From a virus: a stretch of 45,250 nucleotides of DNA. Below are positions 6,819 to 37,091 of the stretch, piece by piece (position 1 is the stretch's first letter; every line of letters begins with the position of its first letter). The notes beneath the pieces were generated by a model, which worked only from the letters and a program-made list of their open reading frames with translations, ran no database searches and was not told the origin of the DNA. A program made the position numbers and the translations under genes. The DNA is taken from positions 1 to 45,250 of IMG/VR virus record IMGVR_UViG_3300017730_000019; one strand, given 5' to 3'.

Positions 6819-7694
6819 ATGGGTAAAAAATTAAAGCACTCGAAGATAAAAAATACGGGAATTCTTTACGAATTACTTACCAGACAAATCACCGTCGACG
6901 TTTTGAATGGAAAAGATTCTAAAGCCGTAGACATAGTTAAAGATACATTCAACGAAAACACTTGTTTAGGTAGAGAATTACAATTATACAAGTTGTTAAC
7001 AGAAAAAAATTATAAATCAGAAAATAAGGCTAATCACCTAATAGAGATTGTTGTAAATTCAAGAAAAAGAATTTCAAATGCTAAGATTAAGAATGAGAAG
7101 TATAATCTTATCAAAAAAATCAATGAGTCTTTTGACACTAAAGATTTTTTCAATGGTAGAATACCTAACTATAAATTATTAGCATCAATCTACAATGTAT
7201 TTCAAAGTGAATCGTCACGAGAAGAGTACAATGCGGAACAGGTTTTAAATTCTAAGTTTACTGTACTCGAGCACATTACTAATACTAACATGAATACTAA
7301 TGATAAGCAGGATAAAATTATTAAGGAATATAGTCAAAACGATAAAGACTTAAGACTATTAACTTATAAAATCTTAGTTGATAAATTCAACAAGAAATAT
7401 AAATCATTAGATGAATCTCAAAAAGGGCTGCTTAAAAATTACATTAATAATATAAGCAATACTAATCAGATGAGACAATTCGTTAATGAAGAAGTAAAAT
7501 CTGTTCGTAAAGAATTACAATATCACCTACCAAGAGTTAAGGATAAAGTAACTAAGATAAAACTTTATGAGGCGATAAAGCAAATAGTCAACTTAACAAA
7601 GGGTAGAGTAATAGAAGAAAAACAAGTTTTAAGTTTAATGAGATATTACGAGTTAGTTAAGGAGATTAATAATGTCCACAAACGACAAGATTAA
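6819..7694 (+). CDS. Conserved head-cluster protein between portal and protease genes
   Basis: A 291-residue basic, largely helical protein beginning MGKKLKHSKIKNTG. An in-frame ATG lies at 6804, but the ATG at 6819 is preceded by GGAG (6806-6809) at 9-base spacing, while nothing like a ribosome site precedes 6804, so I choose 6819. The phrase NTGILYELLTRQ looks like a conserved protein found between gp20 and gp21 in marine T4-like phages. In T4 this interval holds prohead core proteins (gp67, gp68), so a prohead or virion role is plausible from position only. It overlaps the next gene by 23 bases. Confidence 0.78.
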   Translation: MGKKLKHSKIKNTGILYELLTRQITVDVLNGKDSKAVDIVKDTFNENTCLGRELQLYKLLTEKNYKSENKANHLIEIVVNSRKRISNAKIKNEKYNLIKKINESFDTKDFFNGRIPNYKLLASIYNVFQSESSREEYNAEQVLNSKFTVLEHITNTNMNTNDKQDKIIKEYSQNDKDLRLLTYKILVDKFNKKYKSLDESQKGLLKNYINNISNTNQMRQFVNEEVKSVRKELQYHLPRVKDKVTKIKLYEAIKQIVNLTKGRVIEEKQVLSLMRYYELVKEINNVHKRQD

Positions 7695-8295
7695 AGAAAT
7701 TATCAGAAGGCTGATTCGTAAAGAAATTGAAGAAGCCTCTATGACAGGTAACCTTGATGGCGGTGAAGGGCCACCTAAAACACCATACGCTTTTCAGACT
7801 AAACCCAAGTCTAAGAAAGATAAAAAGAAAGAAAAGGCTATCACAACAGCTGGTGGATATTCTAAAGTGGATGAAGCTAAATTTCATGTTAAAGTCGATG
7901 GTTTAGGTAGTGTTATAGTTGATGCTGGTTCTAAGGCTGAAGCTAAAATGATTGTTGCAAAACAAATAAAGAAACGTGGAGATATTGTAAGCGTAACCAG
8001 AGTTCAACCAAGTAAAGCAAAACAGGTTGATAAGAGACTTGAAAGTGTAAACGAGGGGCAATACCACAATTATCGTAACGATGACACAATGACCCCAAGA
8101 CAAAAAATAGGTTGGTCAATGAGAGAAGTTCGTGATAAATTAAATGAGCTTGATAAACTTGTTAAGATAAATGTAAGACTTAAAAACGAACTTAATGTGG
8201 ATTCTAAAACCTATTGGAAAAGAACCCATGCGGCTATGAAAAAAATAAGTGAAAGATTAGTGAAATTAGCCAATAAAGTTGGACAACTATACTAA
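7672..8295 (+). CDS. Putative prohead-associated protein, possible gp21 substrate
   Basis: A 207-residue basic protein. Start ATG is preceded by AAGGAG (7659-7664). After a charged N-terminal helix (about 5-20) there is I-E-E followed by A at 19-22, matching the T4 prohead protease consensus (I/L-x-E, cut before A or G). A GGEGPPKTPYAF stretch follows, then a K-rich segment and a compact alpha/beta-looking region (about 60-115). The C-terminal third is helical. Directly upstream of the protease gene. Function unassigned; a cleaved core or internal head protein fits the context. Confidence 0.72.
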   Translation: MSTNDKIKEIIRRLIRKEIEEASMTGNLDGGEGPPKTPYAFQTKPKSKKDKKKEKAITTAGGYSKVDEAKFHVKVDGLGSVIVDAGSKAEAKMIVAKQIKKRGDIVSVTRVQPSKAKQVDKRLESVNEGQYHNYRNDDTMTPRQKIGWSMREVRDKLNELDKLVKINVRLKNELNVDSKTYWKRTHAAMKKISERLVKLANKVGQLY

Positions 8296-8924: not shown

Positions 8925-9209
8925 ATGTCACAAGAATCAATAAAAATATGGAAAAAGTGGAGAGATTGGAGACTTGAAGAAGAAAAAATTCCAATGGGCT
9001 TTGCTGGATACAAAAATTACTTCGACACCATTGAAAAAGCTATGGAGAGAGTTGAAAGAAATATGAAAACTCTTATCAAAGATTTAGCAAGAGACAAAGA
9101 TGGTGATTACAAAAAAGAAGTATTAGAATTACAAAAAATATACAAAAGAAACTTGATAGAATTGAAAGTAAAATTTGCGGACTTCAAAAGAAAGAATACT
9201 GATGATTAA
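8925..9209 (+). CDS. Small helical protein of unknown function
   Basis: A 94-residue, highly charged protein with W-rich N-terminus (KIWKKWRDWR) and long amphipathic helices, probably coiled coil. The ATG abuts the stop codon of gp21 (TAG then ATG), so it is likely translationally coupled. The 3' end overlaps the next gene by 8 bases. No family recognised. Position in the head cluster suggests a virion or prohead role, as inference only. Confidence 0.7.
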   Translation: MSQESIKIWKKWRDWRLEEEKIPMGFAGYKNYFDTIEKAMERVERNMKTLIKDLARDKDGDYKKEVLELQKIYKRNLIELKVKFADFKRKNTDD

Positions 9210-9486
9210 GTTAAAAGAGTTAATGAAAGATGGATGTGAATGTGGTGGAGGATGCTGCTCTATAACAGAAGGGCCTGATGAACAGAGACCTGCTGATAAA
9301 GAAGTTCAACGTATCGTAAAAAGAGAGGGTGAACTTCGTAAAAGAATGTTTGCATTAGAGCAAGTGTTCTTAAGAGATGCACGACCTGAAAACGTAAAAT
9401 TAGCTAAACAATTAACAAAGACATATAAAGATACAGTTACTAAATTTATGAGAGAGATGATTAAACTTAGAAAGAAACTAAAATGA
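9202..9486 (+). CDS. Leader-bearing small protein with cysteine cluster
   Basis: A 94-residue protein. I place the start at ATG 9202, not the in-frame TTG at 9175, because it gives MIKLKELMKD, the same leader as three neighbouring genes. Right after the leader comes a cysteine cluster (C12, C14, C18, C19, with glycines). It is followed by I-T-E at 21-23 and then G, a good gp21-type cleavage consensus. The rest is charged helix. Probably a capsid-internal protein by leader and context. Metal binding by the cysteines is possible, not shown. Confidence 0.68.
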   Translation: MIKLKELMKDGCECGGGCCSITEGPDEQRPADKEVQRIVKREGELRKRMFALEQVFLRDARPENVKLAKQLTKTYKDTVTKFMREMIKLRKKLK

Positions 9487-9965
9487 TTAAGTTAAAAAAT
9501 ATAATGAATGAAAATTATTGGACTGGTCGTAAGTTTGGTGAAGCATTACCAACACTAAGATTGGAACAAGATGAACCAGAACATTTCGGTGGTGGTGAAA
9601 ACATAAAAATTTTAGATTATCAAACAGAACATTTTGATATATGTCGTTCAGCAGTTATTCTTTACGAAAGATTAGTAAAAGATGTCGATAACACCGACGC
9701 ACAAGATTTAATTATTAGTTCTGCTAAACAACTTGACCACCTATTCGAAATGGAAAAACAAGTCGTTAAGGGTGAAGAGATTGACCACGACCCAATCGAC
9801 CATGGAGTGGAGATTGTAAATATAGTTTCTTATCAGTTAGGTCGTATCGGTGGTATGATTAATGATGACTTTGAAAGAGATACAAACTTTATAAAACTAC
9901 ATTTGATGGAAATCATAAACAGAAAAGATAGTATTAAGATAGCTGATAAACAAGAAGAAGAATAG
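9483..9965 (+). CDS. Leader-bearing small protein
   Basis: A 160-residue acidic protein starting MIKLKNIMNE, one of four with this leader. Start and upstream stop share ATGA (4-base overlap). The body is helical, with a histidine/aspartate-rich patch (EIDHDPIDHG, about 101-110). No family recognised. The leader, the length to glutamate 10 and the location between gp21 and gp22 suggest an internal head protein trimmed by gp21. Confidence 0.68.
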   Translation: MIKLKNIMNENYWTGRKFGEALPTLRLEQDEPEHFGGGENIKILDYQTEHFDICRSAVILYERLVKDVDNTDAQDLIISSAKQLDHLFEMEKQVVKGEEIDHDPIDHGVEIVNIVSYQLGRIGGMINDDFERDTNFIKLHLMEIINRKDSIKIADKQEEE

Positions 9966-10774
9966 TGCCCTCAGTATCTAAAGCACAACAAAGATTTATG
10001 GGATTGGTTCACGCTTACAAAAAGGGTGAGGTTCCAGCGAGTCAAGTCACACAAGCAGTTAAGGACGCGGCTAAATCAATGAAGAAGAAGTCAACTAAAA
10101 AGTTTGCTTCTACAAAACACGATGATTTACCTAATAAAGTTAGGAGTGAAAACATGAATGAAGATGGACACACAGACGTAGCATCAGCTGAGAGAAAACT
10201 CAAACTGATTATAAAAGATGCTATGGATACTATAAACGCACTTCGTGGTATGTCTAACGAAGATTCATTACCAAGTTGGTGGACTGATAAGATTACATTA
10301 GCTAAAGATTACGTTGGTAAGTCTCGTGATTACATCATGAATCCCGCAGAATCCGTAGATGAAATCTTTCCTAAAGGTGCTGGAAGAAAAATAAGTAAAG
10401 CTATGCAAAAAGGATATACACTTTACACAACTGATAAAAGAGGTAAAAAAGTAAAGAAAATAAAAACTTATGATTCAAGACAAGCAGCTGCTGTAGCGAT
10501 GGGTAAACTAATGAAAAACTTAGATACAAATTATTTTCCTAAAAATGTTGATGGATTTATGTACGTACAAGAATCCGTAAATGAAGTTAGTGGTGTTGAT
10601 GTGGCTAAAAAGGTTCTTAAAAATAAACAACACGAAAAAGGTATTGATTTACAGACCGCTAACCTAATAGTAACGATAGATAAAGCCTATGATAAAAATC
10701 CAAGATTACAGAAAAAATTTAGAGCTCTACAGTTACCTAAAATGAAACAATTAATTTTAAAGTATTACGGATAA
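9965..10774 (+). CDS. DUF3008-type N-terminal domain protein
   Basis: A 269-residue basic protein starting with GTG at 9965, sharing one base with the upstream TAG. The first 40 residues (SKAQQRFMGLVHAYKKGEVP) match the DUF3008 pattern, found in small proteins of phages and bacteria. A long K-rich linker follows. A middle part (about 130-180) has a repeated-looking K/G/Y segment (KGYTLYTTDKRGKKVKKIKTY), and the C-terminal 55 residues form a separate helical part. Two stretches, ESVDEIF and QESVNEV, look like spacer-plus-leader fragments. Function unknown; virion-associated by context. Confidence 0.7.
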   Translation: MPSVSKAQQRFMGLVHAYKKGEVPASQVTQAVKDAAKSMKKKSTKKFASTKHDDLPNKVRSENMNEDGHTDVASAERKLKLIIKDAMDTINALRGMSNEDSLPSWWTDKITLAKDYVGKSRDYIMNPAESVDEIFPKGAGRKISKAMQKGYTLYTTDKRGKKVKKIKTYDSRQAAAVAMGKLMKNLDTNYFPKNVDGFMYVQESVNEVSGVDVAKKVLKNKQHEKGIDLQTANLIVTIDKAYDKNPRLQKKFRALQLPKMKQLILKYYG

Positions 10775-10778
10775 GAAT

Positions 10779-11072
10779 ATGATAAAATTAAAAAATATAC
10801 TAACAGAAAAAAAAGAATTATCCAAATCTATCGTAAATGACATAGCTAAAATGACCGATAGAAATGACCATAATGGAGCACGGATGGAATTAGCTAAAGC
10901 TATGAACAATCTCAAATATCAAAACATTTATCAAGGTATAAAAATGATTGCGGATAGAGAGGGAAGTATGCCAAGAGGGTTGATGAAGTATAGAGATGAC
11001 GTTGATAAGAAGTTTTTCCAATTAGCTAAGAGAACATACGATAATTATAATGATATCCATGGAGCATTTTAG
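10779..11072 (+). CDS. Leader-bearing small protein
   Basis: A 97-residue protein beginning MIKLKNILTE, the cleanest copy of the shared leader: L8-T9-E10 fits the gp21 (I/L)-x-E cleavage rule. The mature part would be about 87 residues, charged and helical (HNGARMELAKAMNNLKYQN and a C-terminal FQLAKRTYDNYND). It ends in a TAG that shares its G with the next GTG start. No family recognised. Confidence 0.68.
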   Translation: MIKLKNILTEKKELSKSIVNDIAKMTDRNDHNGARMELAKAMNNLKYQNIYQGIKMIADREGSMPRGLMKYRDDVDKKFFQLAKRTYDNYNDIHGAF

Positions 11073-11398
11073 TGATTAAGTTAAAAGATTTACTGAGTGA
11101 ACAATCTGTAGAAGTAGGAAGCGCTTACGATAATAATGGTGAGATAGAGTTGGTGATAGATAAACACTTTGTAAAAGGTAAGTGGAAAGTTGTTGATTTT
11201 GATTTGAAACAAGACTTTTATAAGGGTGGAGGTACATCATCAGAAAATATATTAAAAAAACAGAAAAAAGTAAAATTAAAACCATCTCAGATTAATAAAA
11301 TAAAAAAAATTATCAAGAATCCTGAGGATAAACACTATCTTGAAAAAGATAATTTTAGAGTAAATGATGTTATAGCAGCGCTAAAGAGAAACAAATAA
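11072..11398 (+). CDS. Leader-bearing small protein
   Basis: A 108-residue protein starting with GTG at 11072 and the leader MIKLKDLLSE; L8-S9-E10 fits gp21 cleavage. The remainder alternates beta-like and K-rich segments (ELVIDKHFVKGKWKVVDFD) and has a basic C-terminal half, pI clearly high. It shares one base with the upstream stop codon and overlaps the next start codon by one base, so the run 9202-11739 is one coupled unit. Function unknown; a DNA-associated internal head protein is a reasonable guess. Confidence 0.68.
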   Translation: MIKLKDLLSEQSVEVGSAYDNNGEIELVIDKHFVKGKWKVVDFDLKQDFYKGGGTSSENILKKQKKVKLKPSQINKIKKIIKNPEDKHYLEKDNFRVNDVIAALKRNK

Positions 11399-11739
11399 TG
11401 AAAAACAAAACATCCTATAAAAGATTAATGGAAATAAATGAAGCTCCTCTAAGCTCACCATCTCAATTACCATTCAGCTCAATAGAAGCACAAAAAATGG
11501 TAGAAAAAGACGTGATAAAGATTGGAAAAATAATCGGTAAAGCATCAGCACAATCAATAAAGGTTATGATGGATGGTGTTAAGGGTGGAAGATACGACGC
11601 ATTAGATTTACAAAGAGCAATTGTTAGTGGCTCAGTCAGAGATACTGGTACAGGTCAAAGAGATTTGATGAGAACCCTTTGGAATAGGGTAAGGGATGGA
11701 TTTCGTAGGTACACAAAACGCGGAAAACTTAGAAAGTAA
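11398..11739 (+). CDS. Small basic protein, possible gp21 substrate
   Basis: A 113-residue basic protein; ATG at 11398 overlaps the upstream TAA. It begins MKNKTSYKRLMEINEA, in which I13-N14-E15 followed by A16 matches the prohead protease cleavage consensus, so the first 15 residues may be a variant targeting leader. The C-terminus is strongly basic (RFRRYTKRGKLRK-like). Virion-internal, DNA-binding function is plausible but inferred. Confidence 0.68.
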   Translation: MKNKTSYKRLMEINEAPLSSPSQLPFSSIEAQKMVEKDVIKIGKIIGKASAQSIKVMMDGVKGGRYDALDLQRAIVSGSVRDTGTGQRDLMRTLWNRVRDGFRRYTKRGKLRK

Positions 11740-11768: not shown

Positions 11769-12437
11769 ATGAAAAAGAAAAGTTTATTTAAAGAACATTT
11801 TAACTCTATAATTGGTGGAGTCGTTACGGCTAAACCATTTGCAGATAATATTAGTCTTGCTAAATTAGTTAAAGAGAAATATGGAAATGTTGATGAAGAA
11901 AAGGTTGACGTTAAGGGTCTAACAAATGAGTTATCTAGCTTTGGTAACTTAGGAGAAACAATTTTTGGTACATCAAATATTAAAAAGATTGCTGAAAAAC
12001 TCAGTTGGATTGCTAATCAGGCTAAAAATCACACATTAAGTGAGACAGAGGATTGGTTTGATAAGATTACTGTGAATCGTAACATGAAAGAATTAACAAA
12101 CCTTTCTAAGTCTTTTACAAAGATTTCAGATGAAGCTAACGCCCTTCAGCAAAGAATGGGAGCTCTATATGAAGATATGGGTAACATTCTTGGTAGATAT
12201 TATGACATGAGTGAGGGTCACGTGGATGGTCATGATACAGACGATGATATGACACCTGAAAAAGAAGATGATAGTGAAACTAAATTCACAATAGAACAAG
12301 GTGATTATGATAAATTTTTTCAAGGCGCAATGAAGAAGTTTGGTATTGACTCACCAGCTGACTTAGATGATGATGAAAAGAAAAAGTTTTTTAACTATGT
12401 CGATGCAAATTATAAAGCAGAGAAAGAAACAGATTAG
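11769..12437 (+). CDS. Hypothetical head-cluster protein
   Basis: A 222-residue protein with basic N-terminus (MKKKSLFKEHF), a helical body with S/T- and N-rich turns and an acidic C-terminal third (DGHDTDDDMTPEKEDD region, then ADLDDDEKKKFFNYVDANYK). Ribosome site TTGAGGA precedes the ATG. Own candidate promoter at 11740. It lies two genes before the scaffold. I do not recognise the family; marine T4-like phages commonly carry a structural protein of this kind here. Confidence 0.7.
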   Translation: MKKKSLFKEHFNSIIGGVVTAKPFADNISLAKLVKEKYGNVDEEKVDVKGLTNELSSFGNLGETIFGTSNIKKIAEKLSWIANQAKNHTLSETEDWFDKITVNRNMKELTNLSKSFTKISDEANALQQRMGALYEDMGNILGRYYDMSEGHVDGHDTDDDMTPEKEDDSETKFTIEQGDYDKFFQGAMKKFGIDSPADLDDDEKKKFFNYVDANYKAEKETD

Positions 12438-12445
12438 AGGTAATA

Positions 12446-12634
12446 TTGTTATACGTAAAACTCCGTAAAGGACAGTCTATAGATAAGGCTCTCAGTATAT
12501 TAAAGAAAAAAGTCAAAGAATCGAAGTTAATGTTAGAGCTAAAAGAAAGAGAACATTATACGAAACCGTCGGCTAAAAAAAGATTAGCGAGAGCAAAAGC
12601 TAAAATGAGACATAAAAAAAGTCTAAAAAGCTAA
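12446..12634 (+). CDS. rpsU: Ribosomal protein bS21 homologue
   Basis: A 62-residue, very basic protein matching small-subunit protein bS21: an opening beta-like stretch (YVKLRKGQSIDKALSILKKK), then a central LKEREHYTKPSAKKRL that corresponds to the RRREFYEKP region of bacterial S21, and a basic tail (KAKMRHKK). Start is TTG at 12446, 5 bases after AGAGG; no ATG gives the full conserved N-terminus. Phage-encoded bS21 is known in marine phages, including T4-like ones. bS21 sits near the mRNA-rRNA helix at initiation, so the phage copy may bias 30S subunits towards phage messages. It lies between head genes, so it is probably made late. Confidence 0.85.
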   Translation: MLYVKLRKGQSIDKALSILKKKVKESKLMLELKEREHYTKPSAKKRLARAKAKMRHKKSLKS

Positions 12635-12792: not shown

Positions 12793-13893
12793 ATGGATGA
12801 CTTATTAAAAGAAGCCATCGCAGATGCAAAAGCAGTTCGTGAAACAGCTCTTGAAAATGCTAAAATCGCTTTAGAAGAAGCTTTCACTCCACGTTTACAA
12901 TCTATGCTTTCTAAGAAGATTCAATCTGAAATAGAAGTTGAAGAAGGTGAACACGAAGACGAAGAAGAAGTCGATGAGAGAATGAAAGATGAAGACGAAG
13001 ATGAAGTTGAAGAAATGAGATTAAAAGCTCAAGACGAAGACCCATCTGACGAAGATTCTAAAGATGAAGCTATGCATGATGAAGATGAAGACGAAGTCGA
13101 AGAAAAAATGCATGATGAAGACGAAGATGAAGTCGAAGAAAGAATGCATGATGAAGATGAAGACGAAGTCGAAGAGGGTGAAGATGAAGATGAAGATGAC
13201 GTAGACGAAGACCTCGACCTTGAAAGTGTACTTAAAGAGCTTGAAGACAGCATCGAAGAAGACGAAGAAGTTGAAGAAGGCGCACATGAAGAAGATGAAG
13301 AAGATAAAGTTGATGAAAACGACGTATCTTCAGACATTGGTGCAGCTGATAACAAAGTTAACAAAAAAGCTGGCGATTCAACCGACATCGGTAACGCTGA
13401 TAAAGCAAAACACACAGAGTCAGTAGATGAAGACATCGACCTTGACGAAGTGTTAAAAGCTTTAACTGAAGAAGATGAAGAAGAAGAAGTAGCAGAAGAA
13501 GTTAATGAAGTTACTCAACTTAAGTCTGAATTAGATGAACATCGCGAAGTAGTTAAGTATCTACGTGGTAAATTAAATGAAGTTAACTTGCTTAACGCAA
13601 AGTTGTTATTCACAAACAAATTATTCCGTGGATTTGGTTTATCCAATGACCAGAAAATGAAAGTTGTGGAAACATTTGATAGAGCAACTAACTTAAGAGA
13701 GGTTAAATTAGTCTACTCAACATTAGTTGAGTCATTTAAGACTAACCAGCCTGAAAAAATCAAAGAATCCAAAGGTTCAGCTTCTAAGCCTGTAGCCTCA
13801 ACAAAATCTGAAAAACAAGAAATTATTTCTGAAGGTTCAGAGTTGAGAAACAGATTCAAGAAGTTAGCCGGGATTACTAAATTTAACAGTTAA
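12793..13893 (+). CDS. gp22: Prohead core scaffold protein (gp22)
   Basis: A 366-residue scaffold with the T4 gp22 layout: helical N-terminus (MDDLLKEAIADAKAVRETAL), a long acidic middle, a coiled-coil region (LKSELDEHREVVKYLRGKLNE, about 245-265) and C-terminal RNRFKKLAGI as in other gp22 proteins. It directs gp23 assembly and is then destroyed by gp21; L-x-E sites are abundant. The acidic middle (about 50-230) is expanded and contains near-perfect 12-residue repeats. GAGGAG precedes ATG 12793. Placed just before gp23, as in T4. Confidence 0.9.
   Translation: MDDLLKEAIADAKAVRETALENAKIALEEAFTPRLQSMLSKKIQSEIEVEEGEHEDEEEVDERMKDEDEDEVEEMRLKAQDEDPSDEDSKDEAMHDEDEDEVEEKMHDEDEDEVEERMHDEDEDEVEEGEDEDEDDVDEDLDLESVLKELEDSIEEDEEVEEGAHEEDEEDKVDENDVSSDIGAADNKVNKKAGDSTDIGNADKAKHTESVDEDIDLDEVLKALTEEDEEEEVAEEVNEVTQLKSELDEHREVVKYLRGKLNEVNLLNAKLLFTNKLFRGFGLSNDQKMKVVETFDRATNLREVKLVYSTLVESFKTNQPEKIKESKGSASKPVASTKSEKQEIISEGSELRNRFKKLAGITKFNS
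13072..13179 (+). repeat. Tandem 36-base repeat in scaffold gene
   Basis: Three consecutive 36-base units begin at ATG 13072, 13108 and 13144, each coding MHDEDEDEVEE plus K, R or G. A related unit, MKDEDEDEVEE, starts at 12982. Units differ by synonymous GAT/GAC changes, so the array is not a very recent slippage product. Confidence 0.9.
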
Positions 13894-13916: not shown

Positions 13917-15560
13917 ATGTCAAATAAATTAGGCACTATCGAAAAGTTGATGGACGGATACAATCCTGTTCGTCAGCGCATGGAGGAAACTAAAGGCTTA
14001 GTAAAAAAGTGGGAAGCCACCGGCCTTTTAGAAGGACTCCAAGATGAGCAGAAAACTCACGGTATGGCAGTTCTACTTGAGAACCAAGCACGTCAGTTAA
14101 TCGACGAAGCATCTCAAGCAGGAACCAATAGTGATTCAGAACAGTGGTCAGGCGTTGCTTTACCATTGGTCAGAAAAATCTTTGGTGAATTAGCCGCACA
14201 AGAGTTTGTTTCTGTTCAGCCAATGAACCTACCATCTGGTCTTATCTTCTATCTTGATTTCAAGTATGGAAGTGCACAGGCTGGATTTACAAGTGGTAAC
14301 GATGTATTCGGTATTACTTCAGGTTCTGGCGACCCAACTGCTGGATTATATGGCGCAGGTCGTTTCGCTTACTCAGCAAATGACAATGCATCATCAGCTC
14401 AATCAAAAGGAACATCTGTATCAGATGGTACTTATACAACTGGCTCAGTAACATTTTCTGATGTTGATTTTGAACCAGACCTATCCGCATCTGTATCAAC
14501 TGGTGCTGATGCTGACAATGGATTAATGAAGATTAATGTTGCAACTGCAGCATTGAGTGGATATGATCCTGAAGGTATAAGAGCATTTAACATTTCTGGT
14601 TCAAACTTTGATGAGTTCTTCCCAGCACATACTAAATTAAACGCTGCTGAGACTGAAATCTCATTTATCGTTAAGAAAGACAGAGCTCAAACACTTGTTG
14701 GTAACGTCGTTGTTGATTATCATAAGCAACCAACTGACGCAACAAGAGGTGACTTTGAAGCAACTGCAAGTGGTACTGGCGCAGAATCAGACGCAGGAAT
14801 ACCAGAGATTGATATTCAAATGCGTTCTATTCCAATAGTTGCAAAAACACGTAAATTGAAAGCTGTTTGGACTCCTGAGCTTGCTCAAGACCTTAACGCT
14901 TATCATAGTGTTGATGCTGAAGCAGAATTAACTGCATTACTTTCTGAGTACGTATCAATGGAAATCGATTTAGAAATCTTAGATATGTTAAGAACTAACG
15001 CATCTGCTAAGACAGAAAACTATTCTGCAAAAGTTGGATTTGAGTTTAACTCAGCTACCAACCTGTTTGAAGAAACTTCTGCAAACTCAAATGCATACAC
15101 AAAAGGTGAGTGGTTCCAGACTCTTGGTAACAAGATACAGTCTGTTTCCAACGCAATTCACCAGAAAACCCTACGTGGTGGAGCTAACTTCATCGTTGTA
15201 AGTCCTGAAACTGCAACTATCTTGGAATCAATTCCTGGATATGCAACTTCATCTGACGGCGATGCATCAGCTAACCAGTACGCTATGGGTGTTCAAAAAG
15301 CTGGTCTTTTGAATAACAGATATACTGTTTACAAAAACCCATACCAGTTTGAGAACGTAATTCTTGTTGGTTTCAGAGGAAGTAACTTCCTAGAAACTGG
15401 CGCGGTGTACGCTCCTTACGTACCGATGATTATGACACCATTAGTATACGACCCAACCAACTTTACTCCACGTAAAGGTGTGATGACTCGTTACGCTAAG
15501 AAAATGGTTCGTTCAGAGTTCTACGGATTAGTAAGAATAGCAGATATTGATAAAGTCTAA
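13917..15560 (+). CDS. gp23: Major capsid protein (gp23)
   Basis: A 547-residue HK97-fold capsid protein of the T4 gp23 family. The N-terminal propeptide ends at L-I-D-E64 followed by A65, the expected gp21 cleavage site and nearly the same position as T4 (residue 65). The conserved block from ALPLVRKIFGELAAQEFVSVQ onward is typical of gp23, as is the end (TPRKGVMTRYAKKM, then SEFYGLVRI). TTGGAGA precedes the ATG. No gp24-like vertex gene is visible nearby. It is followed by the strongest terminator in the window, as expected for the most abundant virion protein. Confidence 0.97.
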   Translation: MSNKLGTIEKLMDGYNPVRQRMEETKGLVKKWEATGLLEGLQDEQKTHGMAVLLENQARQLIDEASQAGTNSDSEQWSGVALPLVRKIFGELAAQEFVSVQPMNLPSGLIFYLDFKYGSAQAGFTSGNDVFGITSGSGDPTAGLYGAGRFAYSANDNASSAQSKGTSVSDGTYTTGSVTFSDVDFEPDLSASVSTGADADNGLMKINVATAALSGYDPEGIRAFNISGSNFDEFFPAHTKLNAAETEISFIVKKDRAQTLVGNVVVDYHKQPTDATRGDFEATASGTGAESDAGIPEIDIQMRSIPIVAKTRKLKAVWTPELAQDLNAYHSVDAEAELTALLSEYVSMEIDLEILDMLRTNASAKTENYSAKVGFEFNSATNLFEETSANSNAYTKGEWFQTLGNKIQSVSNAIHQKTLRGGANFIVVSPETATILESIPGYATSSDGDASANQYAMGVQKAGLLNNRYTVYKNPYQFENVILVGFRGSNFLETGAVYAPYVPMIMTPLVYDPTNFTPRKGVMTRYAKKMVRSEFYGLVRIADIDKV

Positions 15561-24910: not shown

Positions 24911-27217
24911 ATGGGATACGTAGGAAGAGGATTAAATCAAGACGGAGGTCAATACAGAAAGTTAGATAGTATTGAATCAAGCTTTGATGGAAGCGAAGTA
25001 AACTTCACTCTAAAAATAGATGGTTTAGAGGTATCACCCACTGCGCAAAATCTTATGATATCGCTTGGTGGTGTTGTTCAAGAACCAGGCACAGCTTTTT
25101 CTGTAAGTGGAGCTACAATAACATTTGCGACAGCACCAGATGAGGATGCAACTTTCTTTGGTGTCTTAATGGGTGAGGCTTCTTTTATAGCTGCTAATAC
25201 TGTGGGTAGTAATGAAATGGGTGTAACCGCTGGCGCAGTGACTGGTAGTAAGGGAATTGTGGTTGATACTGCAAAAAATATTATCGGACTAAACAACGTA
25301 TCAGCTAGCAAGTTTGAAGGAACATTCGATGGAGCATTATCAAGTTCGGCTCAAATAGCTGCAAATATTAGTGGCTCCTTTTCCAAAGAGCATTTAGGAG
25401 CAAAGGTAGCTAACGTTGTAACAAGCTCAGCTCAGATAGCTGCAGATATAAGCGGTTCATTTGGAAATCAAAGAGTTGGAACGAGTGATTCACCAACTTT
25501 CGCCGGTGGTACTATAACTGGAGATTTCTCGGTTGGTGGTACGATAACCGCACAAGAGGTTCATACAGAATTTGAGAGTGCATCAATTTTATTCACGAGT
25601 GGTTCAACTAAGTTTGGTGATACAAGTAATGATACTCATAGTATGACTGGTTCATTATTAGTATCAGGTAGTATAACGATGGCAGATGGTGATTTGAGTG
25701 TTACAGACGATGTTGTTTTTGGAGCAACAGCTACAGTAGAAACGGGTTTAAATCTTGAAAGTGGTACATTTACAATAAAAAATGCTACGGGTGATACTAA
25801 TGGTTTAAAGATTTCACAAGGTGGTTCAGATGCGTCAAATATTCTTAATCATTATAATGGTACTTTAAATCTTGGTGTTGCTAACTCTGTTGATATGACA
25901 CTTAAAAGTGGCAGAGTGGGTATCGGCGACACTTCTCCAGGTAGTCCTCTTGATGTAAAAAGTGGTGAAGCTGCGAATACAGCTAATTTTAATTCTACAA
26001 GTGGGGCTACAAATATAACACTTGAATCTAATGGTTCACTAATAGGTCAAATGGAATTTTCAGGAGCCGGCCCATCTCAAATCGTTACAAGAACATCTGC
26101 AAGTTTGGCACTTGGTTCTAATAATGTTAAAACACTTTACATTACTGATGATGATAGGGTTGGTATAGGCGTTGCAAGCCCAGCGTATACATTTGACCTC
26201 GCTTCTGGAGATGCTATTGTTTCTCAATTTACAGGAACTAGTGGAGAAACCATATTATCTTTAGACAATACTTCAACCAATGGTGATAAGTGGTACTTAA
26301 TATCTGGTGGTAGTGGTGGAAGTTTTGCTGGTGGTAAATTTGGTATATACAATGCTGATACTACAACAGCAGTAGCAACTTTTACTAATGACGGCAACGT
26401 AAGCATAGGAACTACAGGAATAAACTCTAATGCTAAAGTGCATATTAGAGGAGGAGATAGTGGACAAACAGCTTCAAGCAACAATACACAGCTTACTATA
26501 GAAAGTAATGCTGCAGCGGGTATTCAGCTTTTAACAGGTACAACGAGTGTTGGTGGTATATGGGTTGGAGATTCTAATGGTGCAGAAGCAGGAGGAAAAC
26601 TTTATTATAGCAACAATAATGATAGATGGTCATTTTATAACGCATCAAGTACACTTGGATTATCTATTAGCACTACTGGTATCGGTATAGGTGAAGAAGC
26701 CCCTTATAGTAAAGTTACAGCTGTAGAAACAGAAAGTAAGGCTGCTGCGACTTTCTATAATACAAGAAATCCTTCAAGCTCACCCCCTCATTGTCTGGAT
26801 TTGAATTTTGCTTACACTCCTGACAACACAACATCTTATTTTATAAAGGGTTCAGATAATCTTGGTTCTTCAGCTACTGCTGAATTTCATGTTTATTCAG
26901 ATGGTTCTTTTGTACAGTCATCTGATAGAAGGAAAAAAGAAAATATCGTTGATTCAGAAAATCAACTTGATAAAATAAATCAATTAAAAGTTAGAGATTA
27001 TAATAAAATAAATGATTCATCTAAAAAGAAACATATTGGATTTATAGCTCAAGAACTACAAGAGGTATTCCCACATCTTGTTATTGAAGCTGAAGATGAA
27101 GCAAAAACTTTGCAAGTTTACAAGATTGGTATTGTGCCATTACTTGTTAAAGCAGTACAAGAACTATCAGCACAAAACGAGGCACTAACAGCAAGGATAG
27201 AAGCCTTAGAAAAATAA
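24911..27217 (+). CDS. Tail fibre with C-terminal S74 chaperone domain
   Basis: A 768-residue fibre. The N-terminus (MGYVGRGL, then FTLKIDGLEVSPTAQN and GGVVQEPGTAFSV) looks like a baseplate-attachment domain and is paralogous to the 37092 gene. Next come two SSAQIA-x-ISGS repeats, one LTAQEVHTE/FTSGST module (about 213-245), and a variable region of VGIG/VSIG repeats. The C-terminal peptidase S74 (intramolecular chaperone) has S671-DRRK-K676 with the S-x4-K dyad, followed by KHIGFIAQE. The end is a coiled coil (VQELSAQNEALTARIEALEK). In S74 fibres this part drives trimer folding and then cuts itself off. Confidence 0.9.
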   Translation: MGYVGRGLNQDGGQYRKLDSIESSFDGSEVNFTLKIDGLEVSPTAQNLMISLGGVVQEPGTAFSVSGATITFATAPDEDATFFGVLMGEASFIAANTVGSNEMGVTAGAVTGSKGIVVDTAKNIIGLNNVSASKFEGTFDGALSSSAQIAANISGSFSKEHLGAKVANVVTSSAQIAADISGSFGNQRVGTSDSPTFAGGTITGDFSVGGTITAQEVHTEFESASILFTSGSTKFGDTSNDTHSMTGSLLVSGSITMADGDLSVTDDVVFGATATVETGLNLESGTFTIKNATGDTNGLKISQGGSDASNILNHYNGTLNLGVANSVDMTLKSGRVGIGDTSPGSPLDVKSGEAANTANFNSTSGATNITLESNGSLIGQMEFSGAGPSQIVTRTSASLALGSNNVKTLYITDDDRVGIGVASPAYTFDLASGDAIVSQFTGTSGETILSLDNTSTNGDKWYLISGGSGGSFAGGKFGIYNADTTTAVATFTNDGNVSIGTTGINSNAKVHIRGGDSGQTASSNNTQLTIESNAAAGIQLLTGTTSVGGIWVGDSNGAEAGGKLYYSNNNDRWSFYNASSTLGLSISTTGIGIGEEAPYSKVTAVETESKAAATFYNTRNPSSSPPHCLDLNFAYTPDNTTSYFIKGSDNLGSSATAEFHVYSDGSFVQSSDRRKKENIVDSENQLDKINQLKVRDYNKINDSSKKKHIGFIAQELQEVFPHLVIEAEDEAKTLQVYKIGIVPLLVKAVQELSAQNEALTARIEALEK
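27156..27172 (+). repeat. Exact 17-base repeat at fibre gene 3' ends
   Basis: tacaagaactatcagca, coding the VQELSA part of the C-terminal coiled coil, occurs exactly here and at 29149, 31671 and 39769. Similarity continues through the stop codon into the ATATTTAT motif. The 33805 and 37066 gene ends carry diverged versions. Confidence 0.85.
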
Positions 27218-27224
27218 TATTTAT
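27217..27224 (+). promoter_or_regulatory. Late promoter-like motif ATATTTAT
   Basis: Exact 8-mer whose first base is the last base of the upstream stop codon; 18 bases before ATG 27243. The stretch from here to the ATG nearly repeats the one at 37066. Confidence 0.55.
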
Positions 27225-27242
27225 AATGAAAAGAGAGAGTAA

Positions 27243-29189
27243 ATGTCATTAACTAAAGTACAAATAAATTTAGGAACAACTGGTAATTTATCAGGTAGCC
27301 GTAGTTTAGCTAGTGCTAGTTTCGCATCAAGGGTAAGCTTGGTTGAGGATGGTACAACAAGCAAGACGCTTGTATCTGGCTCTGCACAATTAGCAGCTGA
27401 CATTAGTGGCTCATTTGGAAATCAAAGGGTTGGTACAACCGACTCACCTGTGTTCAACGCTGTTACTGTAGGGACAGCGACTGTTACTGGTACATTGACA
27501 GCTCAAGAGGTTCACACAGAATTTGAATCCGCATCAATTTTGTTTACAAGCGGTTCAACTCAGTTTGGTAACTCAAGTGACGATGTTCACGATTTCTTAG
27601 GTAACACCATAAGCGGTTCAGCCACCTCGACTGGTTCGTTTGGTTCAATTGTGACTAAAGGCACTGGTGTAAGTTCTTTTACATCCAATGTTACAATGGC
27701 TAATAACCTCGATGTGGATGGCACAACCAATCTCGATGTGGTGGATATAGATGGCGCCGTAAATATTTCAAGTGATTCTGTTCCACAACTAACAATAGGT
27801 GGAGGTACTCCTACAATTTATTTAGGTGATAGTGGAGCAGAAGATACAAAATTAGTATTTAGAGGAAATGCTACTGATGTTTATTTAGCTTTAGACGATT
27901 CTGTTGATAGATTTTTAATTGGTCAAGGAACTACAGTTGGTGGAGACGCAAGAATATACATAAACCCTGCTGATGGTGAGGTCACTGCAAGTGGTAATTT
28001 TGCAATAACCGATAGATTGACTGTCGGTGCTTGGGACAATAGTAATAGTCATGGACACGCTAACATAAATATATCGGCTGATGCTAATGAGGGAGCTGAT
28101 TCATCTCTTAATTTTGCAGCAGGGACAACTATAAAAGGTTACATAGCTTATGACCATAATGCAACAGCAGGTTCTCAGGCTCTGAGATTTGTAGTTGGTG
28201 ATGCCGCTGTAACTGCTATGAATATAAATGGTGATGGGCGAGTAATAATAAGAAATGGGTTATTAGAAGTAGGTGAGCATGGAGTTGCAGGAGGTCAAAT
28301 AGTTAGTGATGGTAGCTTAACTTTTAACGCTGGTTATAATGATTCATCTACTGGGAATGGCGATTTTATATTTCAAAGATACGGTGAAAGCACTACCGCT
28401 GCTACAGTAGCTCAAATATTTTCTACAGGTAATGCATATTTTGGTGGAGTTGCATCAGCAGTAAATTCATCACATTTCCAATACGCTTCTACATTTGGAG
28501 ATACAAGTGCAGCAAGGGTAGGTTTCTTTAATGCAGCGTCTGGAAATTCAAGTACAGATAAAACTATGCACTTAAATATTGGTTGTATGGGGCATGGTAC
28601 AAGTGCTTATCATCCAACTAATATGGTTATTGCTTCTATTAACTTTTTAGGTCAAGCAAATGATGCTACTTACGCAGGTGGTGGTATTGATATGCTTGTT
28701 TCAACAGGTGGGAATATTGGAAGAACTTCTGTTGGAACAGATATGTTATTTAGAACAATGGATACATCAGGTAATGGTGGTGAAGAAAGAATGCGTATCA
28801 CATCTAATGGACATTTAGAACCTGGCGGTAATAATGCCTATAATCTTGGAAGTGCCAGTCTTAGATGGTCAGTTGTATTCACATCCAATTCAGTAAATGT
28901 GTCAGATGAAACGCTAAAAACAGATATACAGGATTGTGATTTAGGTATTGATTTTATTAATACATTAAAACCTAAATCTTTTAAGATGAAAGACTTAGAA
29001 GAAAAACACAGTGATTACGATAAAAAACATTATGGATTAATAGCTCAAGACCTAAAAGATGGAAAGTTTAAGGATTCAGTTTATGGTGATAAAGATGGTG
29101 AATATGGTTTAGCTTATAATGATTTAATTGCACCAATGATAAAAGCAGTACAAGAACTATCAGCAAAGGTAGAAGCTTTAGAAAGTTAA
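27243..29189 (+). CDS. Tail fibre with C-terminal S74 chaperone domain
   Basis: A 648-residue fibre with a short, distinct N-terminus (MSLTKVQINLGTTGNLSGS). Then come one LAADISGSFGNQRVG repeat, the module starting at codon 86 with the 50-residue identical core, and a NLDVDGTTNLDVVDIDGAV linker shared with the 29552 gene. The variable tip region (about 190-530) is unlike its neighbours. The S74 domain has S554-DETL-K559 and HYGLIAQDL. It ends in a coiled coil (VQELSAKVEALES). The candidate promoter sits in the 25-base gap upstream. Confidence 0.9.
   Translation: MSLTKVQINLGTTGNLSGSRSLASASFASRVSLVEDGTTSKTLVSGSAQLAADISGSFGNQRVGTTDSPVFNAVTVGTATVTGTLTAQEVHTEFESASILFTSGSTQFGNSSDDVHDFLGNTISGSATSTGSFGSIVTKGTGVSSFTSNVTMANNLDVDGTTNLDVVDIDGAVNISSDSVPQLTIGGGTPTIYLGDSGAEDTKLVFRGNATDVYLALDDSVDRFLIGQGTTVGGDARIYINPADGEVTASGNFAITDRLTVGAWDNSNSHGHANINISADANEGADSSLNFAAGTTIKGYIAYDHNATAGSQALRFVVGDAAVTAMNINGDGRVIIRNGLLEVGEHGVAGGQIVSDGSLTFNAGYNDSSTGNGDFIFQRYGESTTAATVAQIFSTGNAYFGGVASAVNSSHFQYASTFGDTSAARVGFFNAASGNSSTDKTMHLNIGCMGHGTSAYHPTNMVIASINFLGQANDATYAGGGIDMLVSTGGNIGRTSVGTDMLFRTMDTSGNGGEERMRITSNGHLEPGGNNAYNLGSASLRWSVVFTSNSVNVSDETLKTDIQDCDLGIDFINTLKPKSFKMKDLEEKHSDYDKKHYGLIAQDLKDGKFKDSVYGDKDGEYGLAYNDLIAPMIKAVQELSAKVEALES
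27498..27647 (+). repeat. Fifty-codon fibre module, copy A
   Basis: Codes TAQEVHTEF... through SATSTGSFGS. The protein is identical to copies B (29966) and C (31967), but against B 30 of the 50 codons differ, all synonymously (counted by eye). Confidence 0.9.
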
Positions 29190-29196
29190 TATTTAT
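29189..29196 (+). promoter_or_regulatory. Late promoter-like motif ATATTTAT
   Basis: Exact 8-mer starting on the last base of the upstream stop codon; 17 bases before ATG 29214. Confidence 0.55.
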
Positions 29197-29213
29197 ATAG
29201 AAAGAGAAAATAT

Positions 29214-29552
29214 ATGGCAAACACATTTAAATCAGTAACAACAGGTAGTATCGGAACTTCATTAAGGGATACCTATACCTGTCCATCCTCAACAACAACA
29301 ATAGTGTTAGGTGCTAGTATGGCTAACACACATTCATCACCGATAGGTGGCTCTATAAAAGTAGCAAAGAATGGAACCGCTGCTGGACAAGATGATGTTT
29401 TTGTTGTAAAAGCGGCACCAGTTCCAGTAGGTTCAAGTGTTGAGGTTATGGCTGGTAACAAAGTCGTACTACAAGCCTCAGACAAATTACAATTTCAAAG
29501 TGACACCGCTGGTTCTTTAGATGTGGTGGTTAGTTTATTGGAGATTACTTAA
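29214..29552 (+). CDS. Small beta-rich virion protein (paralogue of 34165 gene)
   Basis: A 112-residue protein predicted to be mostly beta strand. A conserved core reads A(P/I)PVGSSVEVMAGNKVVLQASDKLQ. The 34165-34494 protein has the same layout (NAPIPAGGSLELIDGGSKVVMLNGDVLKAQ), ending in SIDALVSFI versus SLDVVVSLL. Both pairs are followed directly by a fibre beginning M(P/G)YIG, which suggests a fibre-attachment or tip-adaptor role. Stop and next start overlap by one base. Small proteins of this shape are common next to marine phage fibres; function is inferred. Confidence 0.72.
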   Translation: MANTFKSVTTGSIGTSLRDTYTCPSSTTTIVLGASMANTHSSPIGGSIKVAKNGTAAGQDDVFVVKAAPVPVGSSVEVMAGNKVVLQASDKLQFQSDTAGSLDVVVSLLEIT

Positions 29553-31711
29553 TGCCTTACATTGGTAAACCACAAAGTGCAGACCCCATAACGGTAAACG
29601 CCTCTAATATAGAAGATGGTAGCATATTAGCCGCTGATATATCTTCTAGTCTTGGTGATGCTATAAGTGGGTCATTTACCACGGTAAGTTCATCTTTCTC
29701 CACAAGAGTTTCTGATGTCGAAGCGGGTAGTACCTCAAAAACATTAGTGTCAAGCTCAGCTCAAATAGCCGATGATATAAGTGGTTCACTAGGTTCAAAT
29801 GCATCTGTAATCCGTTCTCTCGATAGAACAACCATTAGTGGTTCAATCACCACAGTAAGTTCATCGCTCGCGTCAAGAGTAACTGTAAACGAGGGTAGAG
29901 TAAATCAAGGTGTTAAGACGACCGACTCACCAACTTTTGCGGCTGCTACAATTACTGGTACTCTAACTGCGCAGGAGGTTCATACTGAGTTTGAGTCAGC
30001 CTCTATCTTATTCACTTCTGGTTCTACTCAATTTGGAAACTCTTCGGATGACGTTCATGATTTCTTAGGTAACACAATAAGTGGCTCAGCAACCTCAACT
30101 GGCTCTTTTGGTTCAATTGTGGTGCCTGGTAATGTAGATTTTAACGCAAATTTAGACGTGGATGGTACAACCAACTTAGATGTTGTTGACATAGATGGAG
30201 CAGTAACACAAGATGGTGGTAATATTGTATTTAACGAGGATAGTGCCAATCAAGATTTTAGGGTGGAGAGTAATGGTCAAACACATATGTTGTTTGTTGA
30301 TGGTGATGATAAAATAGGTATAGCAGAAAGTTCACCATCAACGACTTTACACATAACTAGACCTGGTAGTTCTTATACAGCTGCTAATCTAGCAGAGGCT
30401 ACTACTGGTGCTGCATTTTTAAGAATAGTACCAGACGGAACAGATGCAAACTCATTATTCGCATCTTCAGTATCAGGATATAGAGTGGCACTTCAAGTAT
30501 CAGGTAGTGCTAATAATGATTTATTGTTACAACCATTTTCAGGCAACGTGGGTATTGGCACAAATAATCCCGTTTCAAAAATTGATGTAAGAGGTGCTTC
30601 TAGCACAATAGCTCTTAATACATCAGCGACTGCTGTATTTACACTAGACCCACCTGATGTATCAAATGGCACTTATTTATTTGGAGATGGTTCAGGTGGA
30701 GGTGACCAAGTACAAATATTAGCAGTTAATGATAGTGCCGCTAATCAAAATGAATACGCTGGTATTGGTTTTGCTATGAAAACATCTGGGAATACAGTTA
30801 CAACTCTCGCTGGTATAGCAGGTATAAAAGAGAATGATACTGATGGTAGTGGTGGTGATGTTGGAGCTTTAGCGTTTGGTTGTAGGACAACTGGTGATTA
30901 TGTAAAAGAAAGAATGCGTATCACATCCGATGGTGAGCTTTTACTTAAATGCACTTCATTAGCTAATGACTTTGGCGCTGAAAGAGGACAGCTTTGCATA
31001 TCCTCAACAAACCACGCCAGTAATAATAATTATGCTGTTTTACAATTACAAGGGCACAGTAATTCAAATAGCGTAGGAACAGGTGGTATTTATTTTTATG
31101 ACCATTCAAACAATGTTGCACTTATACAAGCAAACAGAGCTTCAAGTGAATCAACTTCAAATTTATTGTTTTATACAAATGGTGGTAGTTTAACTGAAAA
31201 AATGCGTATTACATCTGATGGCAGAATTGGTATAAATCAAAACTCTCCAAACGCAAAGCTACATATTCACGAAACAACTAATGGACAAGAATTAATCTTC
31301 CTTAATCATTCTGTAACTGGTGCAAATCAAACTTTTATCCAGTTTAGACATGATGGTACGCAAAGGGGGAATATCCAAGTTAATGATTCTAATGACCAAA
31401 TTGTCTATAACACGAGTGTTTCTGATAAAAGATTAAAGAAAGATTTTGAGGATTGGGATGAATCTATACTACCTGCTTTCAAATCTTTAAAACCACAATT
31501 ATTTAATTTTATAAATTCTGAAAATAAAAGTGGCAAAACTAAAGGTTATATAGCTCAAGACAATGTTGAAGATTTTCCAGAAGCATATACAACGTCTAAA
31601 GTTTTAGATGATGATACAGAATATTATTCATTTAATCCTTCTGGTATGGTCACATATTTAATGAAGGCTGTACAAGAACTATCAGCAAAAGTAGAAGAGT
31701 TAGAAAAATAA
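29552..31711 (+). CDS. Tail fibre with C-terminal S74 chaperone domain
   Basis: A 719-residue fibre beginning MPYIGKPQSADP, the short M(G/P)Y(I/V/L)G start shared by four fibres here. SSAQIADDISGSLG repeats follow, then the recurrent module from codon 139, then the NLDVDGTTNLDVVDIDGAV linker. The tip region has IGIA/VGIG and MRITSDG repeats typical of phage fibre shafts. The S74 domain has S624-DKRL-K629 and KGYIAQDNV, and the protein ends with VQELSAKVEELEK coiled coil. It shares one base with the upstream small gene, so the two are probably co-translated. Confidence 0.9.
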   Translation: MPYIGKPQSADPITVNASNIEDGSILAADISSSLGDAISGSFTTVSSSFSTRVSDVEAGSTSKTLVSSSAQIADDISGSLGSNASVIRSLDRTTISGSITTVSSSLASRVTVNEGRVNQGVKTTDSPTFAAATITGTLTAQEVHTEFESASILFTSGSTQFGNSSDDVHDFLGNTISGSATSTGSFGSIVVPGNVDFNANLDVDGTTNLDVVDIDGAVTQDGGNIVFNEDSANQDFRVESNGQTHMLFVDGDDKIGIAESSPSTTLHITRPGSSYTAANLAEATTGAAFLRIVPDGTDANSLFASSVSGYRVALQVSGSANNDLLLQPFSGNVGIGTNNPVSKIDVRGASSTIALNTSATAVFTLDPPDVSNGTYLFGDGSGGGDQVQILAVNDSAANQNEYAGIGFAMKTSGNTVTTLAGIAGIKENDTDGSGGDVGALAFGCRTTGDYVKERMRITSDGELLLKCTSLANDFGAERGQLCISSTNHASNNNYAVLQLQGHSNSNSVGTGGIYFYDHSNNVALIQANRASSESTSNLLFYTNGGSLTEKMRITSDGRIGINQNSPNAKLHIHETTNGQELIFLNHSVTGANQTFIQFRHDGTQRGNIQVNDSNDQIVYNTSVSDKRLKKDFEDWDESILPAFKSLKPQLFNFINSENKSGKTKGYIAQDNVEDFPEAYTTSKVLDDDTEYYSFNPSGMVTYLMKAVQELSAKVEELEK
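29966..30115 (+). repeat. Fifty-codon fibre module, copy B
   Basis: Same 50 residues as copy A (27498) and copy C (31967), encoded with largely different synonymous codons. Confidence 0.9.
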
Positions 31712-31718
31712 TATTTAT
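31711..31718 (+). promoter_or_regulatory. Late promoter-like motif ATATTTAT
   Basis: Exact 8-mer overlapping the last base of the upstream stop codon; 17 bases before ATG 31736. AAGGAAAGAG follows as the ribosome site region. Confidence 0.55.
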
Positions 31719-31735
31719 AAGGAAAGAGAAATAGA

Positions 31736-33805: not shown

Positions 33806-33812
33806 TATTTAT
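33805..33812 (+). promoter_or_regulatory. Late promoter-like motif ATATTTAT
   Basis: Exact 8-mer overlapping the upstream stop codon; 18 bases before ATG 33831. Confidence 0.55.
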
Positions 33813-33830
33813 TAAAAAGAAAGAAAGTAG

Positions 33831-34154: not shown

Positions 34155-34164
34155 AGGATAAGTA

Positions 34165-34494: not shown

Positions 34495-34498
34495 TAAT

Positions 34499-37066: not shown

Positions 37067-37073
37067 TATTTAT
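37066..37073 (+). promoter_or_regulatory. Late promoter-like motif ATATTTAT
   Basis: Exact 8-mer on the end of the upstream stop codon, 18 bases before ATG 37092; nearly the same gap sequence as at 27217. Confidence 0.55.
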
Positions 37074-37091
37074 AATGAAAAGAGAGAATAG

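Follow-up and report, generated by a model that had tools for sequence, protein, structure and literature searches.

We have analysed a 45,250-base virus record (IMG/VR IMGVR_UViG_3300017730_000019, positions 1 to 45,250; hereafter 'the window') with a head region of T4 type, in which four genes, starting at 9202, 9483, 10779 and 11072, encode proteins that share a ten-residue N-terminal leader of the form MIKLKxxLxE. This leader is very probably a capsid-targeting sequence (CTS) of the T4 kind, which would dock its protein on the prohead core and be cut off by the gp21 protease, the freed proteins being kept in the head. The same reading had been put forward in a preliminary description of this DNA, and, as far as sequence comparison can carry it, it is supported by the constraint on the motif, by the concentration of the leader in T4-like loci and by a wider, T4-type form of it on virion enzymes of cyanophages. 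Targeting by the leader is well supported and its predicted cutting is supported by residue conservation and domain junctions; injection of the proteins and their action on the host we infer.

The leader and the T4 rule

All four leader genes lie on the plus strand: 9202-9486 (94 aa), with the leader MIKLKELMKD at 9202-9231; 9483-9965 (160 aa), with MIKLKNIMNE at 9483-9512; 10779-11072 (97 aa), with MIKLKNILTE at 10779-10808, followed by KKEL; and 11072-11398 (108 aa), with MIKLKDLLSE at 11072-11101. The first three start with ATG and the fourth with GTG, and an additional TTG is present at 9175, upstream of 9202. By residue composition, 0.006 MIKLK starts would be expected in the window (Poisson P for four or more, 6e-11), and by the position-specific background of related open reading frames (ORFs), 0.014. 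As with the T4 CTS, an N-terminal peptide of about ten residues is common to otherwise unrelated proteins. The four proteins had been described as diverging completely after the leader, and among the window genes they do; many leader proteins of relatives, however, have a second module in common behind it (e.g., NVWDRKFGEPLPTL), which gene 9483 retains as W..GRKFGEALPTL (9519-9557). A second leader clade, found in L170, L172, L177 and L192, combines the leader with a different second module, MIK(L/F)KN(I/L)L(A/Q)ENM(R/F)(R/S)FGTKN(L/I).

For T4 IPIII, packaging requires no more than the first ten residues, of which 4 and 7 count in targeting and 8 and 10 in processing; gp21 cuts after (L/I)-x-E, and Asp at position 10 stops processing and leaves targeting intact (PMC9026906; papers are cited here and below for the excerpts consulted). 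The leader follows the T4 positions overall, with a full match to the rule in 10779 and 11072 and exceptions to its cutting part in 9483 (Met8) and 9202 (Met8 and Asp10). A search that fixed M[IVL]K[LF]K and nothing else yielded 85 distinct leaders in the window and its relatives. Positions 7 and 8 are both hydrophobic in all of them (85/85), and position 10 is Glu in 78 and Asp in two, against a background Glu frequency of 7.6%; position 4 was set to Leu or Phe by the search, and positions 7, 8 and 10 were left free in this count.

The Asp10 of 9202, given its effect in T4, would suit a system in which the leader targets without being cut and remains on the packaged protein. We regard this as improbable, because Glu10 prevails among the 85 leaders and homologous domains begin directly after (L/I/V/M)-x-E despite differing lengths of the preceding pro-region (see below). 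Codon usage bears on another alternative, namely that the leader is unrelated to heads and is a translation-start or gene-shuffling signature of late genes. The leader codons of 89 leaders are indeed biased (Lys5 is AAA in 88, Leu4 is TTA in 75), but they still vary, with ATG, GTG and TTG starts, AAA or AAG, and TTA or CTN.

Predicted cleavage sites and the linkers of gene 9965

A gp21-type prohead protease is encoded in the same genome (8307-8924, plus strand; Peptidase_S77, E 4e-28; phrog_207, E 2e-54) and has a conserved INE/SIKEN close to its own N-terminus (the slash marks the predicted cut). The specificity (L/I)-x-E in this lineage is indicated by a conserved site in the major capsid protein gp23 (13917-15560, plus strand; PF07068, E 8.8e-79). 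Its predicted cut, LIDE/AS at residue 64, lies ahead of the Pfam match, which begins at residue 75. Glu64 is present in 98% of 90 aligned relatives, and of 41 distinct sites retrieved with a pattern that demands Glu, 40 have Ile at P3 and all 41 have Ala or Ser directly after the site. More broadly, a conserved (L/I/M/V)-x-E within the first 70 residues was found in 9 of 13 head-region families and in 1 of 10 others, one further family having too few homologs for this N-terminal conservation test; the test is not specific, as it also calls gp23 residues 39 and 55 and gene 6804, sites that need not be cut. The portal gp20, which is unprocessed in T4 (PMC5694885), has no Glu within its first 70 residues.

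In leader proteins the sites coincide with domain boundaries. Homologs of 10779 have Glu10 and a hydrophobic P3 in 23/23 aligned, and the domain begins KKEL directly after (L/I)-x-E behind pro-regions of 10 residues in the window, 36 in L092, 40 in L587 and 44 in L592, with L535 as an exception to this junction rule. Homologs of 11072 show MIKLKELLKE/QK, an internal GLNE/QK and ESVNE/MVKPGDV. In 9202 there is a probable second cut, SITE/GPDEQ (residues 20-23, 9259-9270), and its homologs have (V/I/L)-x-E ahead of the conserved domain (Glu in 54/54 aligned, hydrophobic P3 in 93%). The same domain can join the leader directly, as MIKLKDFLNE/GPDEQRP in L013; in both L013 and L017 it comes immediately behind MIKLKDFLNE or MIKLVDFLNE.

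In the AlphaFold2 model of 9483, residues 1-35 have pLDDT below 50 and most of the remainder 80-96. The disordered start, followed by a predicted helical domain at about 36-156, would fit a removable pro-region plus cargo. A fold search with the model gave no match in PDB under E 0.001, and the top viral match was an uncharacterised phage protein (E 0.002). A weak viral match of the domain (E 0.07, rank 4) is to part of a 924-residue cytidyltransferase-like phage protein; cytidyltransferases occur among the tagged virion proteins described below.

The tagged set of the window is probably larger than four. Genes 7672-8295, 8925-9209, 11398-11739 and 11769-12437, all on the plus strand, begin with other short stretches that end in (L/I/M)-x-E. 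Two of them, 7672 and 11398, had been proposed as leader variants, and the homologs bear this out. The pro-region of 7672 (7672-7734, ending EIEE/ASMTG) has Glu21 in 98% of 61 aligned and a hydrophobic P3 in 93%; P3 is L, I or M in 67 of 68 members found by a pattern demanding Glu. For 11398 (pro-region MKNKTSYKRLMEINE/APLSS, 11398-11442) a MIKLK-type leader is present on 5 of 43 homologs, the site itself being too little conserved for the N-terminal test. The pro-region of 8925 (8925-8981) ends WRDWRLEE/EKIP, with a conserved Glu19 and a hydrophobic P3 in 90% of 21 aligned. That of 11769 (11769-11795), MKKKSLFKE/HFN, has (L/I/M/V)-x-E at residue 9 in 91% of 67 aligned, and 10 of 80 homologs have a MIKLK-type leader instead. 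A further pro-region type, W..W(K/R)(D/E)(F/Y/W)RLxE, was seen in 8925 itself and in homologs of 11398 such as L564, L538, L584 and L570; on the 11398 homologs it replaces the YK.LM.E and MIKLK types.

We propose that, during head assembly, the protein binds the prohead core through the hydrophobic leader residues 4, 7 and 8 and that gp21 (8307) would then cut after (L/I/M)-x-E, at residue 10 in 10779 (LTE), in 11072 (LSE) and probably in 9483 (MNE). The leader of 9202 would target the protein, which, because of Asp10, would probably be cut not at residue 10 but later, after SITE at residue 23; genes 7672, 8925, 11398 and 11769 would use their other short pro-regions with the same kind of site. 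Once freed, the proteins would stay inside the head, and they may pass into the host together with the DNA.

Gene 9965-10774 (plus strand) encodes a DUF3008-type protein (Pfam, E 1.3e-9) without the MIKLK leader, which looks like a series of small domains joined by ESVNE-type linkers. Three of these, ENMNE (10148-10162), ESVDE (10349-10363) and ESVNE (10571-10585), split it into four segments; relatives reach 1133 aa, with as many as eight differently ordered segments. The AlphaFold2 model (pLDDT 50) is too poor to confirm the domains. Over its first 58 residues, the 9965 protein shares 63% identity with SSCSM1_93 of the cyanophage S-SCSM1, annotated as a virion protein. This 69-residue, virion-flagged, DUF3008-like protein (L438, 42627-42836) has the leader-like C-terminus RTFKEFLEYIE.

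The linker pattern [ED][SA][VIL]NE was counted at 110 sites, spread over 59 of the 1409 proteins in the T4-like set, against a single site for its reversal, and none of 859 podovirus proteins has it; ESVNE linkers are nearly absent from the cultured phages examined. Some domains of the 9965 type are also found on their own, following a MIKLK leader and beginning at almost the same residue. Among 55 distinct linker-to-domain starts, 13 fall within four residues of leader-protein position 11 and the remaining 42 do not; RMDKRQAGE alone accounts for four of the 13, which leaves about ten domains, and no chance level stands beside 13/55. The linkers of 9965 may also be cut; P3 is Val in 117 of 155 linkers vs Ile in 40 of the 41 gp23 sites. 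The ESVNE linker is conserved in DNA as well as in protein: one 15-base version, GAATCCGTAAATGAA, makes up 48 of 85 exact ESVNE sites, and the rare Ser codon TCC is used at 60% of ESVNE sites vs 5% in the set. Because the linker DNA is so uniform, the linkers may be recombination seams, instead of or besides cut sites. We tentatively consider a cargo polyprotein system, in which gp21 would cut the linkers in the prohead to free several small host-acting proteins from a single packaged polypeptide and cargo would be swapped by recombination at the linkers; such a system is conceivable rather than probable.

Distribution, cargo and virion proteomes

Among the best 80 of 591 IMG/VR loci selected by gp21, 45 contain leader-like starts. 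These number 87 and all lie on the gp21 strand; five of them (44-residue ORFs beginning MLKLKIKMVE) are probably not genes. The stricter count is 82 in 795 kb for this set and 72 in 995 kb for 79 loci selected by gp23, some contigs being common to both sets; all are on the hallmark strand, and the mirrored motif is found in neither. A control of 80 podovirus loci, picked by the terminase of pelagiphage HTVC010P, contains no leader in 679 kb at a GC content of 0.327 vs 0.320-0.337 in the T4-like sets. A looser ten-residue form, M..[FYLIM]..[FYLI][ILMVF].[ED], occurs 12.3, 11.4 and 3.1 times per 100 kb in the gp21, gp23 and podovirus loci, respectively, and thus has a background. Across 30 records, 22 chosen for having leaders and eight by gp21, the leader pattern was found 84 times and its reversal never.

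Peptidase_S77 was identified in 20 of 44 leader-bearing records, these being the ones longer than 15 kb among 80 leader loci listed; since most of the 44 (39) are shorter than 100 kb, a missing protease says little. The expectation that leaders cluster near gp21 in relatives held in most records. The two are about 5 kb apart or less in 12 of 19 records with both, and 10-29 kb apart in the other seven, of which two, G016 and G033, seem to represent one phage. These distances, like the codon bias, would agree with a signature unrelated to heads. Against such a signature stand the absence of leaders from the marine podovirus loci and the distribution of the motif in the cyanophage S-CREM2, where it is enriched among non-canonical virion proteins and is on none of the canonical structural ones (see below), and we give it only a very slight probability.

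Cultured phages with a MIKLK cluster were not found: tblastn with a typed 41-residue consensus returned 17 weak matches (E >=4), the search with gene 9483 was without a match at E 1, and no MIKLK leader is present among the genes translated around gp20-gp23 in Mel-JY01, immuto, Melnitz and C48C1. In IMG/VR, scanned with three DNA patterns, we identified at least 415 distinct leader proteins (at least 45 aa) in at least 170 families by comparison of their bodies; each of the matches listed, L156 excepted, stands at the start of a reading frame. Families were built by single linkage, and the largest (55 members) may be chained. Among the loci retrieved, at least 116 families show MIK[LF]K leaders, at least 62 MKxFKEF leaders and at least eight both; as a positive control, the MKxFKEF pattern recovered the annotated IpIII of phage JS98, which begins MKTYKEFIAEA.

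Most leader cargo has no recognised function. Pfam assigned 45 families at E <=0.01 in 119 leader proteins, mostly MIK[LF]K family representatives, and a Pfam scan of ten leader proteins left five without a match. Single proteins carry S-AdoMet lyase (L400), Zeta_toxin/AAA_33 (L137), NUDIX (L153), PolyA_pol with HD (L184) and RNase_T (L127) domains. Cargo rich in ADP-ribosyltransferase (ART) domains, as in Alt, is not claimed, because of ten candidates picked by eye Pfam confirmed one (L348, ART-PolyVal, E 1e-23); another, L420, fell below the cut-off (E 0.013).

The four leader genes of the window all lie between gp21 and the probable gp22 and encode small proteins without recognised domains. 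This would fit proteins that bind the prohead core by their leader as assembly factors, like T4 gp67 and gp68, and are cut up and lost, with no host cargo involved. However, the leader is found elsewhere on enzymes (SAM lyase, zeta-toxin-like kinase, NUDIX, nucleotidyltransferase and exonuclease), and tagged enzymes of S-CREM2 were detected in CsCl-purified virions, so that we consider a role limited to assembly rather unlikely.

S-CREM2 is a T4-like cyanophage, for which 52 proteins were detected by mass spectrometry (MS) of CsCl-purified virions (PMC10665884). The ten-residue motif stands at the annotated start of 7 of its 219 annotated proteins, and five of the seven are virion proteins: gp6 SAM hydrolase (MKDFDSFLEE), gp13 (MKDLHSFLTE), gp14 kinase (MKRFDAFLTE), gp136 (MQTFSMFFSE) and gp154 cytidylyltransferase (NMNAT-like; MKNFSSFLTE). 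The remaining two are ORFs of 66 and 55 residues, and the mirrored motif matches one protein. Fisher P for the association of motif and virion is 0.009 when every protein is counted and 0.0007 when the 24 canonical structural ones, none of which matches (0/24), are set aside. The final motif was fixed after the S-CREM2 N-termini had been listed, but was taken from T4 positions; an earlier, looser pattern gave eight matches, five of them virion proteins (P 0.02 and 0.0018). The virion Cas9 gp12 of S-CREM2 (L432, 7704-10313, minus strand) has a leader-like LRFASFMAE/A at residues 17-25.

The virion NMNAT of S-SCSM1 (SSCSM1_91) begins MKSFLQFLKE (PMC9602691), and the virion cytidylyltransferase of S-SZBM1 (SSZBM1_140) begins MRFRQFIIE, one residue shorter (PMC9146016). 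Tagged proteins inside virions, as known for the T4 CTS, are represented in published MS by five proteins of S-CREM2 and two further NMNAT-like ones, in cyanophages and not in MIKLK phages. What the cyanophages contribute is that unexpected virion enzymes carry the motif. The comparison comprises S-CREM2, S-SCSM1 and S-SZBM1, with S-CREM1 (PMC9964418) left out; virion status in S-SCSM1 follows GenBank notes, which flag 48 proteins where the paper says 45, and the S-SCSM1 and S-SZBM1 papers were examined for proteome words only. In the text on S-CREM2 (PMC10665884), terms for N-terminal, targeting or cleavage signals are absent save for one reference.

Several observations weigh against a targeting and cleavage role of the MIKLK leader. 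The MS support covers the MKxFxxFLxE form of cyanophages, not a MIKLK phage, and in the closest cultured relatives, Mel-JY01 and immuto, none of the genes translated from gp20 to gp23 starts with a MIKLK leader. By gp21, the nearest relatives in culture are phages of Microcystis and Flavobacterium. Applied to all ORFs, the motif has 10 matches in S-CREM2 with five virion proteins (mirror 0), but seven matches with one virion protein in S-SCSM1 (mirror nine) and eight with none in S-SZBM1 (mirror five); with the latter two counts near the mirrored control, the loose motif alone is no predictor. SSCSM1_30, SSZBM1_191 and SSZBM1_192 are tagged, yet neither flagged nor listed as virion proteins. 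Conversely, the motif is missing from 23 of the 28 non-canonical virion proteins of S-CREM2, including the non-structural endolysins gp208 and gp209, and from the flagged translational repressor SSCSM1_70. For S-CREM2 (PMC10665884) and S-SCSM1 (PMC9602691), the authors point out that the CsCl preparations might contain the enzymes as carry-over. Leader proteins resembling tRNA nucleotidyltransferase and Mom are not obvious virion proteins, and genes 9483, 9965, 11072 and 11398 failed the N-terminal conservation test.

Head-region context and relation to known systems

Besides the genes described above, Pfam searches identified a T4-type terminase (3355), gp20 (4947) and a tail sheath (41413) in the window. 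A probable scaffold gp22 is encoded at 12793-13893 on the plus strand; Pfam gave no match for it, its placement follows from position and acidic composition alone, and it contains the conserved sites AVRE/T and ALEE/AF. Between the cargo cluster and gp22 lies a homolog of ribosomal protein S21 (12446-12634, plus strand, TTG start; PF01165, E 7e-13), and an annotated RpsU of Mel-JY01 likewise sits between gp21 and gp23. Further downstream, 24911-39830 (plus strand) is occupied by a run of long proteins, probably repeated tail or fibre genes, several of which have similar coiled-coil-like C-termini (..ARIEALEK in 24911, ..AKVEALES in 27243, ..AKVEELEK in 29552 and ..KVEALEK in 37092).

Internal head proteins have bodies that are not conserved, which makes them hard to recognise. 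A ten-residue tag that can be read off the sequence converts the question of what marine T4-like phages carry as cargo into a list of at least 170 families, which includes SAM lyase, zeta-toxin-like, NUDIX and nucleotidyltransferase proteins. It would also offer a simple route for SAM hydrolase, kinase and NMNAT into cyanophage virions, a route left open by the authors in the excerpts consulted (PMC10665884 and PMC9602691). Six leader strings had no match in open-licence PMC papers, a scope outside which preprints fall, and earlier notice elsewhere is possible; in PMC3037559 and PMC2993671, the portions covered by a term search do not mention internal head proteins.

Polyvalent proteins would resemble gene 9965, as read here, in having many small domains in one polypeptide (2-15 distinct ones), in their proposed injection with the DNA and in their proposed processing (PMC5512222). 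They often have a peptidase domain of their own, zincin or assemblin-like, whereas the proposed cutter of 9965 is gp21, acting in trans, and its ESVNE linkers are uniform. Inner-head proteins of SPN3US and phiKZ are, as proposed for the leader proteins, made with N-terminal propeptides that the prohead protease removes after x-E; they differ in that several propeptides exceed 100 residues and the sites are A-x-E or S-x-E, and only two paralogs, gp53 and gp54, are said in the excerpt to share their first 15 residues (PMC5694885). Among the virion enzymes of S-CREM2, S-SCSM1 and S-SZBM1, five have the leader at their start, in one case shorter by a residue; they use the MKxFxxFLxE form, unlike the MIKLK of the window.

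The closest likeness is to the T4 CTS of IPI, IPII, IPIII and Alt, with which the leader shares its length of about ten residues, hydrophobic positions 4, 7 and 8, an acidic position 10, an (L/I)-x-E gp21 site and unrelated cargo. It is unlike the T4 CTS in its Leu-type core (MIKLK..LxE) in place of Tyr or Phe, in the second conserved module of many members, in the far greater number of cargo families and in the frequent location of cargo genes beside gp21. Judged from these sequences, the system appears to be a Leu-type variant of T4 capsid targeting, with a much larger list of cargo than is known for T4.

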